From IMG/VR virus record IMGVR_UViG_3300025128_000138, positions 1 to 36,737 of that record: 36,737 bases of DNA. One strand, 5' to 3'. A program made the translations under genes and the position numbers. This stretch comes from a virus. The notes under the pieces are model-generated. The model had not been told where the DNA came from and did not search any database. It was given only the letters and a program-made list of their open reading frames with translations. Shown here piece after piece: positions 3,601-14,827 of the stretch. Every line of letters starts with the position of its first letter. The first letter of the stretch is position 1.

Positions 3601-4035
3601 ATGCAAACATTTTTACCCTATGCCGATTTATCACTTAGTGCTGCTTGCTTAGATTCCAAGAGGTTGGGCAAGCAACGTGTAGAGGCTATGCAGATTCATA
3701 ACGTGGTTTCTGACAAGACTACTGGTGGTGGATGGGCTAATCACCCCGCAGTTCTTATGTGGCGTGGCCATGCTGATGCTCTTGCCTTTTATCATAACGT
3801 TATTATTGACGAATGGGTTCTGCGTGGCTTTCGCAACAATATGGAATACCTACCAATACCAGACGGCGAGATTATTTTTCCAGACTGGTTTGGTGACGAA
3901 CGGTTCCATTCATCGCATCGCTCTAATTTATTGCGTAAAGATTCAGATTGGTATGGTCAGTTCGGCTGGGGCGAGTCGGCAGACCTAGAATATTTTTGGC
4001 CTGTGCGGAAAGGAGGTACATATGCCAAGACCTAG
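3601..4035 (+). CDS. Pyrimidine-dimer DNA glycosylase-like protein (Pyr_excise/MSMEG_6728 type)
   Basis: The 144-residue protein has the family pattern MQTFLPYADL at the N-terminus, then LDSKRLGKQRVEAMQI (about 17-32), GWANHPAVLMWRGHADAL (about 44-61) and HSSHRSNLLRKDSDWY (about 101-116). This arrangement matches the MSMEG_6728 family, which is related to T4 endonuclease V (PF03013), an enzyme that cuts DNA at UV-induced pyrimidine dimers. The N-terminal residue after Met is Gln rather than the Thr nucleophile of T4 DenV, so catalysis is uncertain. It is the first gene behind the promoter at 3549. A UV-repair role would suit a phage from sunlit water, but that is inference. Confidence 0.75.
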   Translation: MQTFLPYADLSLSAACLDSKRLGKQRVEAMQIHNVVSDKTTGGGWANHPAVLMWRGHADALAFYHNVIIDEWVLRGFRNNMEYLPIPDGEIIFPDWFGDERFHSSHRSNLLRKDSDWYGQFGWGESADLEYFWPVRKGGTYAKT

Positions 4036-11292: not shown

Positions 11293-11874
11293 ATGCCTAT
11301 CACTGGAAATAACCAAACATCGGTACAAGAAAAATCAGATGCTTTTTTTATGATTTATATGATGATGGGGCCAGACAGAACATTGGAAAAACTTTTAGAT
11401 ATATGTACTGAGGGTGGGCTGAAGACTTCAATTTCTGCGCTGAAACAATATTCCGCCAAGTATGATTGGCAAAAGAAGCTGCAAGAAGCCAGTCAAGTTG
11501 TGCAGGTCAAGCATAAGCAAGACCATGCCAGCGTTATATCCGACATGAACGAGCGGCAAGCCAGACTCGGGCAGGCCATGCAGAATCTATCTGGGCGTGG
11601 TCTATCACAAATCCGTGACAATATAGGGCAATTGTCGGCAAGAGATTCAGTCGTTCTTGGTGACGTTGGGTCAAAGTTAGAGCGTCTTGCTAAAGGTGAA
11701 GCTACCACCCGCCAAGAGATAACTAATCAAATGATATCCCCCATTGTCTATAACATCGTGACCATGTTCCAACAGGTGAACCTAATTGAAGACAAGGAGC
11801 AACGTGAGCGGGAGTTTGCTCTAGGATGCGATGCGATATTAGAACAGGCGGTTGGCACACTGGAAGAAGTATAA
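11293..11874 (+). CDS. terS: Probable terminase small subunit
   Basis: The 193-residue protein is helical. The N-terminus holds a helix-turn-helix-like region, with LEKLLDICTEGGLKTSISAL (about 31-50) then KQYSAKYDWQKKLQEASQVV (about 51-70), a layout seen in phage small terminases, where the HTH leads into a W-containing helix. A long central coiled-coil-like stretch (about 75-160) would drive oligomerisation. It is the first gene of the block that ends with the large terminase, although ParB-like and ABC-GNAT genes come between. A small terminase recognises pac/cos DNA and stimulates TerL. The call rests on fold pattern and position. Confidence 0.65.
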   Translation: MPITGNNQTSVQEKSDAFFMIYMMMGPDRTLEKLLDICTEGGLKTSISALKQYSAKYDWQKKLQEASQVVQVKHKQDHASVISDMNERQARLGQAMQNLSGRGLSQIRDNIGQLSARDSVVLGDVGSKLERLAKGEATTRQEITNQMISPIVYNIVTMFQQVNLIEDKEQREREFALGCDAILEQAVGTLEEV

Positions 11875-11883
11875 GGAGAAGAT

Positions 11884-12432
11884 ATGTTCAGGGACAGGAT
11901 AAAGGAATTCCGCAGAGTTAAGGCAAGCGAATTAGCCCCTTCACCCAATAATTGGCGTAAACACCCGCAACATCAGGAGGATGCGTTACGAGCAGTGCTA
12001 ACTGAAATAGGATACGCAGACGCTGTTCTAGCCCGTGAGACTGCTGAAGGCCTAGAGGTAATTGATGGACACCTTAGGACGTCTCTAGATGATGAACAGA
12101 CAGTGCCTGTGCTTATATTAGATGTAGATGAAGAGGAGGCTAAGAAGTTACTCCTTACCCATGACCCAATAGCGGCACTGGCTGAGACGGATGCAGACAT
12201 CCTGAGCGAACTACTGGCGGACGTTTCGTTTGATGATGTTGCTGTAAAAGAAATGCTGGATAACTTATTAGAGGCGGGTTCAATAACAGAAGAAGATTGG
12301 CGGGACAGCGGCATATATGACATACCACCTGTCTATCAAGTTCTTATAACCTGCGACAACGAGCAAGACCAAGGCCGTCTTCTTGTTGAGTTAGATGGAA
12401 GGGGTATATCTGTAAAGGCATTGACCATATGA
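11884..12432 (+). CDS. ParB/sulfiredoxin-fold domain protein
   Basis: The 182-residue protein begins with a ParB-like N-terminal domain: VKASELAPSPNNWRKHPQHQ (about 11-30), ALRAVLTEIGYADAVLARE (about 35-53), VIDGHLRTSLDDEQTVPVLI (about 59-78), then DVDEEEAKKLLLTHDPI. The GHLR motif is the nucleotide-binding/active-site loop of the fold, which in ParB binds CTP and in phage relatives is often linked to DNA methylases or modification enzymes. There is no HTH domain of the chromosomal ParB type. The C-terminal 60 residues (YQVLITCDNEQDQGRLLVEL) form a small alpha/beta module. An AAGGAGAAG site precedes it and it overlaps the ABC-GNAT gene by 4 bp, so the two probably act together. Confidence 0.85.
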   Translation: MFRDRIKEFRRVKASELAPSPNNWRKHPQHQEDALRAVLTEIGYADAVLARETAEGLEVIDGHLRTSLDDEQTVPVLILDVDEEEAKKLLLTHDPIAALAETDADILSELLADVSFDDVAVKEMLDNLLEAGSITEEDWRDSGIYDIPPVYQVLITCDNEQDQGRLLVELDGRGISVKALTI

Positions 12433-13550
12433 ACATAACCATATCCAAAAAGACAGACGTTAAACGGACAGCAAGGGTCATGCAGATGGAGGGCATATTT
12501 CAAATGTCACCCACCACCGTATCAGAATCCGCATGGCAGGTTGATATGCCTATTGAAGATTGGGATTGGAAGATAGGCTTGATTGTTGGGCCGTCTGGGT
12601 CAGGCAAGTCTACTGTCGCAAGCCATGTCTTTAAGGATGCTTACTGGGCTGATAGACAGACGTGGACTTCAGATACCTCTATAGTTGACGAATTTCCAAA
12701 AGATGCAAGTATTAAAACCATCACAGAACTTCTGTCGAGTGTGGGTTTTTCTTCACCTCCAGCATGGCTCCGTTCATACCAATCGCTATCAACAGGTGAG
12801 CAATTTCGAGTAACAGTTGCCAGAGCTTTAATGGAAGCTTCAACGGGTAACAGTGATACTATCTGCATTGATGAGTTCACATCCGTCATCGACAGGCAGG
12901 TTGCTCAGATAGGCTCGGCATCTATAGCTAAAGCGATTAGGCGTGGCAATACATCTCGATTGGTAGCCATTTCCTGTCATTCCGATATTATTGATTGGTT
13001 GCAACCCGATTGGCTTTATGAGCCAGCGACAAATACGTTCTCTCGGAGGTCGGTTCAACGACGCCCAGAAGTTAACCTTGAAATTTACAGAGTTGACCGC
13101 TCAGCTTGGGACATATTCAGCAAACATCACTATCTAGATGTCAGCTTAAGCAAATCGGCTAAGTGTTTTGTGGCTTGTGTAGATGGCAAGCCTGCGGCGT
13201 TTTGTGGGGTCATGATGTTTCCACATAGGATTCCTTCAGCTTCTACTTGGCGAATAAGTCGCATAGTGTGTTTGCCTGATTACCAAGGAATTGGGATTGG
13301 TATGAAAATGTGCGAATACATAGGCTCGATATTTGAAGCATCAAATCATCATTTATCTATCGTGACTGGTCATCCATCTTTAATCCGTGCTATGGGTCGT
13401 TCAGCTAACTGGACAATGAGGTCAAAACCCGGATTAAGGTCTGGTGGGCGTTTGTATAATCCTATGTCCGCAACACGAATGACAGCTGGGTTCAGATATA
13501 ACGGCCCCCCGCTGGAAGATGATGCAAGAGCGTTTGGGCTTATAGCATGA
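12429..13550 (+). CDS. ABC-type ATPase fused to Mom-like GNAT domain
   Basis: The 373-residue protein has two halves. The first (about 45-205) is an ABC ATPase: Walker A GPSGSGKST (about 53-61), signature LSTGEQFRVTVARALME (about 119-135), Walker B TICIDEFTSVIDRQVAQIG (about 143-161), and switch His in AISCHSD. No membrane partner is encoded, so it is not a transporter. The second (about 212-373) is GNAT-like: FSKHHYLDVSL (about 232-242), CFVACVDGKPAAFCGVMMF, RISRIVCLPDYQGIGIGMKM (about 273-292, the acyl-CoA loop). The HHY and ...FVA...GKPAAF pattern resembles the Mom-like protein at 2069. It overlaps ParB before and TerL after by 4 bp each. I infer a DNA- or nucleotide-modifying enzyme with ATP-driven DNA engagement. 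Confidence 0.85.
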   Translation: MNITISKKTDVKRTARVMQMEGIFQMSPTTVSESAWQVDMPIEDWDWKIGLIVGPSGSGKSTVASHVFKDAYWADRQTWTSDTSIVDEFPKDASIKTITELLSSVGFSSPPAWLRSYQSLSTGEQFRVTVARALMEASTGNSDTICIDEFTSVIDRQVAQIGSASIAKAIRRGNTSRLVAISCHSDIIDWLQPDWLYEPATNTFSRRSVQRRPEVNLEIYRVDRSAWDIFSKHHYLDVSLSKSAKCFVACVDGKPAAFCGVMMFPHRIPSASTWRISRIVCLPDYQGIGIGMKMCEYIGSIFEASNHHLSIVTGHPSLIRAMGRSANWTMRSKPGLRSGGRLYNPMSATRMTAGFRYNGPPLEDDARAFGLIA

Positions 13551-14827
13551 CCACTACCCCGAAATATACTGGGCATACCGCTCGTTCTATTCTTGGATTG
13601 AATAAAGATGATTTACACGGAGTTTGGAAGCCCTACCCACATCAAGTTCCCCCAGATGGAGAATGGCGTTTATGGGTAATGCTTGGTGGGCGTGGTTCTG
13701 GCAAGACAGAAGCGGGTTCCCGATATGTACTTGAGCATTTACGAAGGTATGGACGAAAGGCAAGGGTTGGTGTTGGCGCACCCACGATACAGTCAGCGAG
13801 AGAGGTCTGCGCAGAGGGAGACTCTGGATTAATCACTATTGCAAGAGAAGAATTTGAATGGAATCGTTCCATGCTAGAAGCAAGGCATAAAAATGGTGGT
13901 TATGTGAAGTTCATGGGAGCAGAAGAACCAGCTCGATGGAATGGGCCGCAATGGACGTTGCTCTGGGCTGACGAGCTTGCATTATGGAAGCGTGAGAGTT
14001 ACGACCAAGCAACATTTGGGGTAAGACTTGGAGATTCTCCACGGATAGTCGCTACCACAACGCCTAAGGCTGCTAAGTGGGTCAGGACATTAGAACAAGA
14101 ACAAGCCACAGTTACGACCCATGGAACCATGTATGATAATCCAGCATTAGCTCGTTCAGCGGTAGAAGCATTAGAGCGACGATATGGAGGAACACGATTA
14201 GGCCGTCAGGAACTTCTTGGAGAATATGTAGATGAAATTGAAGGCGCTCTGTGGAGGATTGACTGGATTGACGAAAATCGTAGAAGCCAACTGCCACATT
14301 TAATGGAAGATGAAGAAAATAAACTAAATATGTCCAGAATTGTAGTTGCAGTAGACCCAGCTGTTACGGCAAATGCCGAGAGTGATGATACAGGAATAGT
14401 CGTTGCTGGACTGGGTGGGGATGGCGACTTTTATGTTATGAGCGCAGCTGGATATAAATTGTCACCAGAACAATGGGCATCTAAGGTCTTGGATGCTTAT
14501 GATTATTGGGCTGCTGACTTAGTGGTCTGTGAAGTAAACCAAGGTGGTGACATGGTGAAGGATACAATTGAACGAGTTTGTGAAGGTAGAGGCCGTAGCG
14601 TAAATGTAAAATCCATTCGAGCTTCTAGAGGTAAGACGCTGCGGGCTGAGCCAATAGCGGCTTTATATGAGCAAGGTCGGGTTCATCACGTTGGCATATT
14701 TGCTGAAGCAGAAGACCAAATGTGTTCGTTCCCAGTGGCGGTTGAAAATGACGATATGGTGGATGCCTTGGTTTATGCTCTAAGCGATTTATCAAATCAA
14801 GGAATTCCTAATGTGAGGTTCATATGA
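13547..14827 (+). CDS. terL: Terminase large subunit
   Basis: The 426-residue packaging motor has an ATPase domain with Walker A GGRGSGKT (about 47-54), adenine-binding PYPHQ upstream, Walker B LLWADEL (about 139-145) and coupling motif IVATTTPKAAK (about 165-175). The nuclease domain has acidic sites in VVAVDPAVTANAESDDTGI (about 265-283), VCEVNQGGD and a terminal DDMVDALVYALSD (about 402-414). It would cut concatemers and pump DNA through the portal encoded 160 bp downstream. The sequence type is that of Terminase_6/HK97- or GTA-like enzymes. The start ATG overlaps the ABC-GNAT stop. Confidence 0.95.
   Translation: MTTTPKYTGHTARSILGLNKDDLHGVWKPYPHQVPPDGEWRLWVMLGGRGSGKTEAGSRYVLEHLRRYGRKARVGVGAPTIQSAREVCAEGDSGLITIAREEFEWNRSMLEARHKNGGYVKFMGAEEPARWNGPQWTLLWADELALWKRESYDQATFGVRLGDSPRIVATTTPKAAKWVRTLEQEQATVTTHGTMYDNPALARSAVEALERRYGGTRLGRQELLGEYVDEIEGALWRIDWIDENRRSQLPHLMEDEENKLNMSRIVVAVDPAVTANAESDDTGIVVAGLGGDGDFYVMSAAGYKLSPEQWASKVLDAYDYWAADLVVCEVNQGGDMVKDTIERVCEGRGRSVNVKSIRASRGKTLRAEPIAALYEQGRVHHVGIFAEAEDQMCSFPVAVENDDMVDALVYALSDLSNQGIPNVRFI

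Follow-up and report, generated by a model that had tools for sequence, protein, structure and literature searches.

What does a phage gain from joining an ABC ATPase to a GNAT domain in one polypeptide, encoded between a ParB-fold gene and its terminase? The question is raised by a single ORF (12429-13550, 373 aa; ABC-GNAT hereafter) of the window, a stretch of 36,737 bases that is an entire virus record. As an earlier note on this DNA had it, the ORF overlaps by 4 bp both the ParB-fold gene before it (11884-12432, 182 aa) and the terminase large subunit gene after it (terL, 13547-14827; PF03237, 9.6e-24, and PF17289, 9.6e-17, Terminase_6N/6C); the coordinates confirm both overlaps. The terminase small subunit gene (11293-11874; phrog_6299, 5.6e-10) lies upstream of the pair, and these four genes with their parts described below, like a separate Mom-family gene at 2069-2713, are all on the + strand. 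Our best explanation, which we hold with a probability of about 0.65, is that the ParB-fold protein and ABC-GNAT carry out an ATP-driven, ParB-controlled acylation of the phage's own DNA against restriction.

The idea attached to the ABC and GNAT fusion is not itself new. In its excerpted text, PMC7824862, citing Iyer et al. 2013, predicts that an ABC ATPase-coupled GNAT acylates a DNA base, the acyl group being unspecified, and gives Tenacibaculum phage pT24 as the example. The earlier note had presented a related idea as one it had not seen tested; we likewise found no experimental test of ABC-GNAT function in the open-licence literature, but base acylation was already in print (PMC7824862, excerpt). 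As far as we searched, the details of the ParB linkage, the exchange with mom and the link with donor genes described below are new, and each may be partly in Iyer et al. 2013.

The family is large. By tblastn the window protein matches 71 of 50,697 phage records, some via the ABC half only and pT24 among them; at least 598 relatives occur in viral contigs (among 600 stretches from a patterned scan) and at least 308 in bacterial contigs (among 373 such stretches). The named phages label these relatives, for example, 'ABC transporter' or 'hypothetical protein', and ABC and GNAT are found as separate genes in Streptococcus, Lactococcus, Oenococcus, Enterococcus and Thomasclavelia phages and in pT24. 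The fused ORFs from the scans and the named phages numbered 254, and 196 after merging at >90% identity. Since the scan patterns were taken from conserved stretches of the family itself, the best 80 loci of each collection scan were kept, and the window's own partner gene served as the seed of the ParB profile, the tallies given below describe near relatives of ABC-GNAT and not the whole family. The window has no close DNA relative among the phages searched; a contig of a different sample (L020, 3622-4743) encodes a product identical to its ABC-GNAT.

An ABC ATPase fused to a GNAT domain

The reading of this ORF as an ABC ATPase joined to a GNAT domain finds Pfam, PHROG and structure prediction in agreement. 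The N-terminal half is over the cut-off for ABC_tran (PF00005), the C-terminal half over those for Acetyltransf_1 (PF00583) and Acetyltransf_7 (PF13508), and phrog_11143, a PHROG to which no function is assigned, covers residues 5-361 at 5e-102, which amounts to a full-length match. The AF2 model of the whole protein, made from an alignment of 53 sequences, has a pLDDT of 93.1 and a pTM of 0.87. In this model residues 1-207 (12429-13049) superpose on ABC domains (VIA-align; best 7w7c_A, Z 15.4, rmsd 2.9, 178 aligned), and residues 213-360 (13065-13508) match 1y9k (Z 14.4, rmsd 3.8, 138 aligned). Modelled alone, the GNAT half (pLDDT 90.4) gives again 1y9k (Z 14.1, rmsd 3.7, 140 aligned), so that structure prediction, the check set beforehand for the C-terminal half, returns a GNAT fold.

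The motifs of the ABC half are invariant or nearly so among 53 relatives. These are the Walker A GPSGSGKS (residues 54-61, 12588-12611; G54, S56, G57, G59 and K60 invariant), the LSxG signature in the form LSTGEQ (residues 120-125, 12786-12803; L120, S121 and G123 invariant), the Walker B with its catalytic glutamate (residues 144-149, 12858-12875; D148 and E149 invariant), the D-loop (S152/D155/R156) and the H-switch (His184, 12978-12980, invariant). The protein had been credited with all nucleotide motifs, and one exception must be made: no canonical Q-loop glutamine is conserved across residues 62-94 of the 196-member alignment, the remaining ABC-defining features being present. The earlier comparison with ATPases of the SMC/Rad50 kind is a poor one, because the model has no coiled-coil arm: its ABC domain is contiguous and compact (~207 residues), with a longest helix of 18 residues. 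PADLOC matches to mad3 and MTase_II were rejected as generic P-loop or ParB matches.

The GNAT half carries HHY (residues 233-235, 13125-13133; H234 and Y235 invariant) and the stretch RxVxLPDxQGxG (residues 278-289, 13260-13295; R278, V280, P283, D284, Q286, G287 and G289 invariant), which we take to be the acyl-CoA-binding loop of GNATs; the Q/RxxGxG of such a loop is represented by Q286, G287 and G289, again throughout the 53 relatives. Because the motif residues are invariant in both halves, the ABC half and the GNAT half are both likely active.

Is the GNAT half then a second Mom? The gene at 2069-2713, suspected of being Mom-like, proves to be a true member of the Mom family (PF25680, 4.3e-36), and the two proteins were said to share HHY together with a pattern FVA...GKPAAF. 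HHY is literally all that they share, the second pattern being missing from the protein of the gene at 2069. Moreover, the ABC-GNAT protein gives no PF25680 match over the curated cut-off, sub-threshold and weak matches to this profile were seen within the ABC-GNAT genes (GNAT half) of LE4 and Pmp13, and in HHalign the GNAT half gives P 0.09 against Mom, which lies within what control GNATs give (0.01-0.7). The special sequence kinship with Mom that had been claimed is thus not borne out, and the C-terminal half may be a GNAT able to do Mom's work rather than a second Mom. When BFVD was searched with the model of the GNAT half, none of the matches listed (50 of 854) was named Mom, which is uninformative as to kinship; one match is a siphovirus protein of 214 aa labelled aspartate 1-decarboxylase (A0A8S5PZ92), which may be a GNAT like PanZ or may have been misnamed. 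When 66 ABC-GNAT records were searched for Mom (the viral ones being 50 chosen as long enough, ~25 kb or more, with the named-phage loci L003 and L005 left out), it was over the cut-off in two, and the window, which carries both genes, is unusual. Elsewhere the window encodes the C-terminal part of an amidoligase followed by a class II glutamine amidotransferase (26-1579), possibly a separate pair for small-molecule or peptide modification, and a pyrimidine dimer DNA glycosylase family protein (3601-4035; PF03013, 6e-23).

The ParB-fold partner and its C-terminal tail

The ParB fold attributed to the upstream gene is supported by PHROG ParB families (best phrog_620, 1.2e-15), and the gene also matches the ParB-methyltransferase family phrog_498 (7.6e-16). 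The window's gene has no match in Pfam; PF02195 is over the cut-off in the partner genes of three out of four relatives and slightly under it in the fourth. The earlier note had called for a homolog search for ParB and ABC-GNAT pairs. Among the 196 members, 151 have a ParB-fold gene adjacent and on the same strand, 2 have it fused, 29 have it at a distance of up to 1.5 kb and 3 at a greater one, and 6 lack it, with too little sequence to judge in 5; 191 members are thus informative, 151 with adjacent genes and 2 with single-ORF fusions. In the latter, ParB, tail and ABC-GNAT are read in one frame (L138, a viral contig, 613 aa; L191, a Gemmataceae MAG, 611 aa). Further ParB fusions suggested by 548-aa ORFs (L076, L086-L088) were rejected as start-codon or frame artefacts.

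At its C-terminus the partner carries a conserved domain of ~40-48 aa (12286-12429 in the window), a putative adaptor to ABC-GNAT. A profile of this tail finds a match upstream of 182 of the 196 family members (E<1e-3). In two phages (loci L004 and L009) the ParB fold has been lost and the tail kept as a stand-alone mini-gene of 42-49 aa which overlaps the ABC-GNAT start, with 49 codons in Pseudomonas phage Komp_PAO1_1 and 42 codons in Porphyromonas phage 008a. Neither ParB nor tail was found at the locus in P12024S, vB_VmeM-32, PX29 and Pan216. These observations support the view that ParB and ABC-GNAT form a real unit. The tail is its constant element, including the two fusions and the two mini-genes, a feature that is new as far as we searched; it would be the piece that docks onto ABC-GNAT, the ParB fold being presumably a regulatory or DNA-loading module. 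At two loci (L038, 3229-3852; L058, 536-1159) ParB is separated from the full ABC-GNAT gene by a GNAT-only copy.

Exchange with mom and candidate acyl-donor neighbours

Ten Mu-like Porphyromonas phages have the same last tail genes (84-100% query coverage, 86-100% identity), and what follows these genes differs from phage to phage. The slot, at the right end, holds ABC-GNAT in five of the ten (006a, 007a, 008a, 009a and 011a), a 289-aa gene annotated 'acetyltransferase' in four (012a, 013a, 014a and 015a), and nothing annotated in 010a. The slot protein of 012a belongs to the Mom family (PF25680, 5.9e-56), and those of 013a-015a match a Mom profile that includes 012a at 1.3e-108 or better. Aligned across the exchange, 008a and 013a are 92% identical up to the junction, carry dissimilar cassettes, and are then alike over 93 bp (81%) to the phage end, while 010a is 95% identical to 008a on either side of the absent cassette. 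In phage Mu, com-mom sits at the right end and is annotated as acting shortly before packaging. Two alternative genes in one slot are the strongest indication we have of a Mom-like function for ABC-GNAT, and this natural swap supports a DNA-modifying role.

Where would the acyl group come from? In Gordonia phage Jace and several contigs, ABC-GNAT is directly followed by two genes, one for an aspartate decarboxylase (PanD; PF02261, 2e-33) and the other for a short CoA transferase of class III (PF02515). Of ten distinct PanD sequences, nine retain the Y-x-G-S site for self-cleavage, and the other is a truncated ORF. A GDTxGGLW motif is conserved in the CoA transferases, at the presumed position of their catalytic aspartate. 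Together the two enzymes would probably yield beta-alanyl-CoA, a candidate acyl donor. CoA-transferase matches were obtained at 22 loci. As the search was confined to ABC-GNAT loci, their presence there is partly by construction, but across the entire phage collection the only matches to the Jace CoA transferase are 2 records of one phage, Jace itself. The CoA-transferase loci hold 11 of the 196 members, usually beside an aspartate decarboxylase, and one of these loci has two ABC-GNAT copies; at L220 the CoA transferase is 1.9 kb off and there is no PanD. Formyltransferase loci hold 3 of the 196. Judged by gene order, ABC-GNAT has a formyltransferase gene after it in ten Gordonia phages and in Komp, and also in 006a and 008a, the two Porphyromonas phages examined for it. 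Altogether, donor genes accompany 14 of the 196 members, mostly in one clade each.

A single branch of 19 holds most of the CoA-transferase group. As L188 lies outside this main branch, the genes were likely acquired at least twice, a tentative conclusion given the midpoint rooting and the low support elsewhere in the tree. N311 and Y322 of this group, considered as 'donor codes', were rejected, as they track clade rather than function; N311 is also present in 6 members without donor genes. A fusion of ABC-GNAT with PanD in L234 was likewise dismissed as a start-codon or frame artefact. In L104 (2560-5820; also in L054, L056 and L064) two full ABC-GNAT genes flank PanD and the CoA transferase, an arrangement which may mean two acyl transfers. 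No relevant open-licence paper tying aspartate decarboxylase and CoA transferase to phage DNA modification was found.

Proposed role, alternatives and known systems

What was observed here (the sequence, the folds predicted for it, conserved motifs, linkage in operons, fusions and the slot swap) leads us to infer a scheme in which DNA is the presumed substrate, and the base modified, its acyl donor, the ATP cycle and the docking are conjectural. The ParB-fold and ABC-GNAT products would act as one machine that acylates phage DNA late in infection, as a Mom-like shield against restriction. ATP binding would dimerise the ABC halves, so that the DNA is clamped and the target base exposed; the GNAT half would transfer the acyl group from acyl-CoA onto the exocyclic amine of this base, and ATP hydrolysis would free the DNA from the clamp. 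The ParB-fold partner would dock by its C-terminal tail, and its nucleotide switch would control loading or spreading on DNA. The acyl group would be branch-specific, one branch making its own beta-alanyl-CoA with aspartate decarboxylase and CoA transferase, a second one adding a formyltransferase, and the window's branch, in which no donor gene is seen, taking host acyl-CoA.

DNA acylation is favoured by the folds, the motifs, the ParB linkage, the slot swap and the donor genes together. TmcA, an NTPase-GNAT that acetylates a tRNA base, gives a precedent for the fold, and base acylation had been predicted (PMC7824862, excerpt). Several observations count against it: the GNAT half is as close to GNATs acting on proteins or small molecules (RimI, Naa50) as to any others, its profile does not single out Mom, the window protein gives no PF25680 match over the cut-off, and donor genes are present in so few members, mostly of one clade each. 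The window carries Mom too, which would make one modifier redundant unless different bases are marked. The fullest version of the scheme is possible but doubtful at present: in one branch PanD would supply beta-alanine, the class III CoA transferase would turn it into beta-alanyl-CoA, and a ParB-guided ABC-GNAT would place it on a DNA amine, while another branch would formylate the product, the whole being a mom-exchangeable cassette and an energy-driven counterpart of Mom. We know of no amino-acid-derived group of this kind in DNA.

The first alternative is that the GNAT half acylates a protein, be it terminase, capsid or a host protein, with the ABC half regulating or loading it. RimI and Naa50 match the GNAT-only model within 1 Z of 1y9k, which puts RimI and N-alpha-acetyltransferases among the closest solved GNATs; many members adjoin terminase genes, and there are phage GNATs, Rac for one, whose target is RNA polymerase (PMC7824862, excerpt). 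We nevertheless consider it improbable, since it does not account for the exchange with mom in a single slot, nor for a constant partner whose fold is also found with phage DNA methyltransferases (phrog_498; PMC12704722, excerpt), and some members lie far from any terminase.

Two further readings are each quite unlikely. ABC-GNAT could acylate a tRNA or rRNA base and aid translation during infection. It has the NTPase-GNAT architecture in common with TmcA, which is the second PDB match of Foldseek to the model (E 1.6e-8), but the overall TM-score is low (0.29) and the ATPase is an ABC one and not RecD-like, which weakens TmcA as a precedent also for DNA acylation; the ParB-fold partner, the frequent position before terminase and the exchange with mom speak against RNA as well. 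Alternatively, ParB and ABC could organise phage DNA for the terminase, the acyl mark being secondary. The 4-bp overlap with terL in the window points this way, and so does the fact that, among the 180 members with sufficient sequence, 130 have terminase genes downstream at no more than 3 kb (110 TerL, 20 TerS only; the TerL profile was made without ABC matches, as an iterated one drifted into ABC P-loops, and supplemented with two further TerL clusters). However, no terminase follows in the seven named cases looked at (Jace, Komp_PAO1_1, EastWest, the Porphyromonas phages, P12024S, PX29 and vB_VmeM-32), and the Porphyromonas and Komp versions have no ParB fold, the tail alone being kept. Location ahead of the packaging genes is common but dispensable, and the coupling to packaging is positional, not obligatory. 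Of the earlier suggestion of a DNA modification made at packaging, the modification thus draws support from the slot swap, and the packaging part does not hold as a rule. A gene of ~105-116 aa directly follows ABC-GNAT in 7 loci, including L110 (1743-2066) and L120 (5137-5487); the one scanned is phrog_34910.

Finally, PanZ is a GNAT and PanD follows ABC-GNAT in one branch, so that the GNAT half might be a PanZ-like activator of aspartate decarboxylase in an operon that boosts CoA, but this is very unlikely, as the CoA-transferase/PanD loci hold so small a share of the members and the ABC half, ParB and the exchange with mom are left unexplained.

Acylation of DNA therefore remains our preferred reading. 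The family is a large one, predicted earlier, for which we found no measured function, and the mom exchange and the donor genes make the 2013 prediction concretely testable. If the reading is true, phages would have one more way of evading restriction, through a DNA hypermodification dependent on ATP and a ParB switch.

How does ABC-GNAT compare with known systems? The nearest is the ABC-coupled GNAT of Iyer et al. 2013 with its example pT24, which is of the same family but has ABC and GNAT in separate genes, with no ParB or tail found there. Mom is placed in the GNAT superfamily (PMC7824862, excerpt); it shares HHY and the Porphyromonas genomic slot with ABC-GNAT, but has neither ATPase nor ParB, and the canonical QGxG CoA motif of ABC-GNAT is, by eye, lacking in the window's Mom. 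TmcA, the tRNA(Met) cytidine acetyltransferase, has likewise an NTPase domain followed by a GNAT and acylates a nucleobase amine, although its ATPase is not of the ABC type. It carries a RecD-like helicase domain, its substrate being tRNA. The Mom of phage Mu, which modifies adenine in phage DNA, has an antirestriction role. ParB folds bind ATP, CTP or GTP and occur in phage fusions to methyltransferases and in a bacterial GTP-binding ParB-acetyltransferase fusion (PMC12704722, excerpt); the phage ParB-DNA methyltransferase fusions (phrog_498) also pair this fold with a DNA-modifying enzyme, but transfer methyl rather than acyl groups and have no ABC ATPase. Systems of the Dnd/SMC/Rad50 type also employ an ABC ATPase alongside DNA modification or repair (PMC10853773, excerpt), whereas ABC-GNAT is devoid of a coiled coil and no nuclease partner is seen at its locus.
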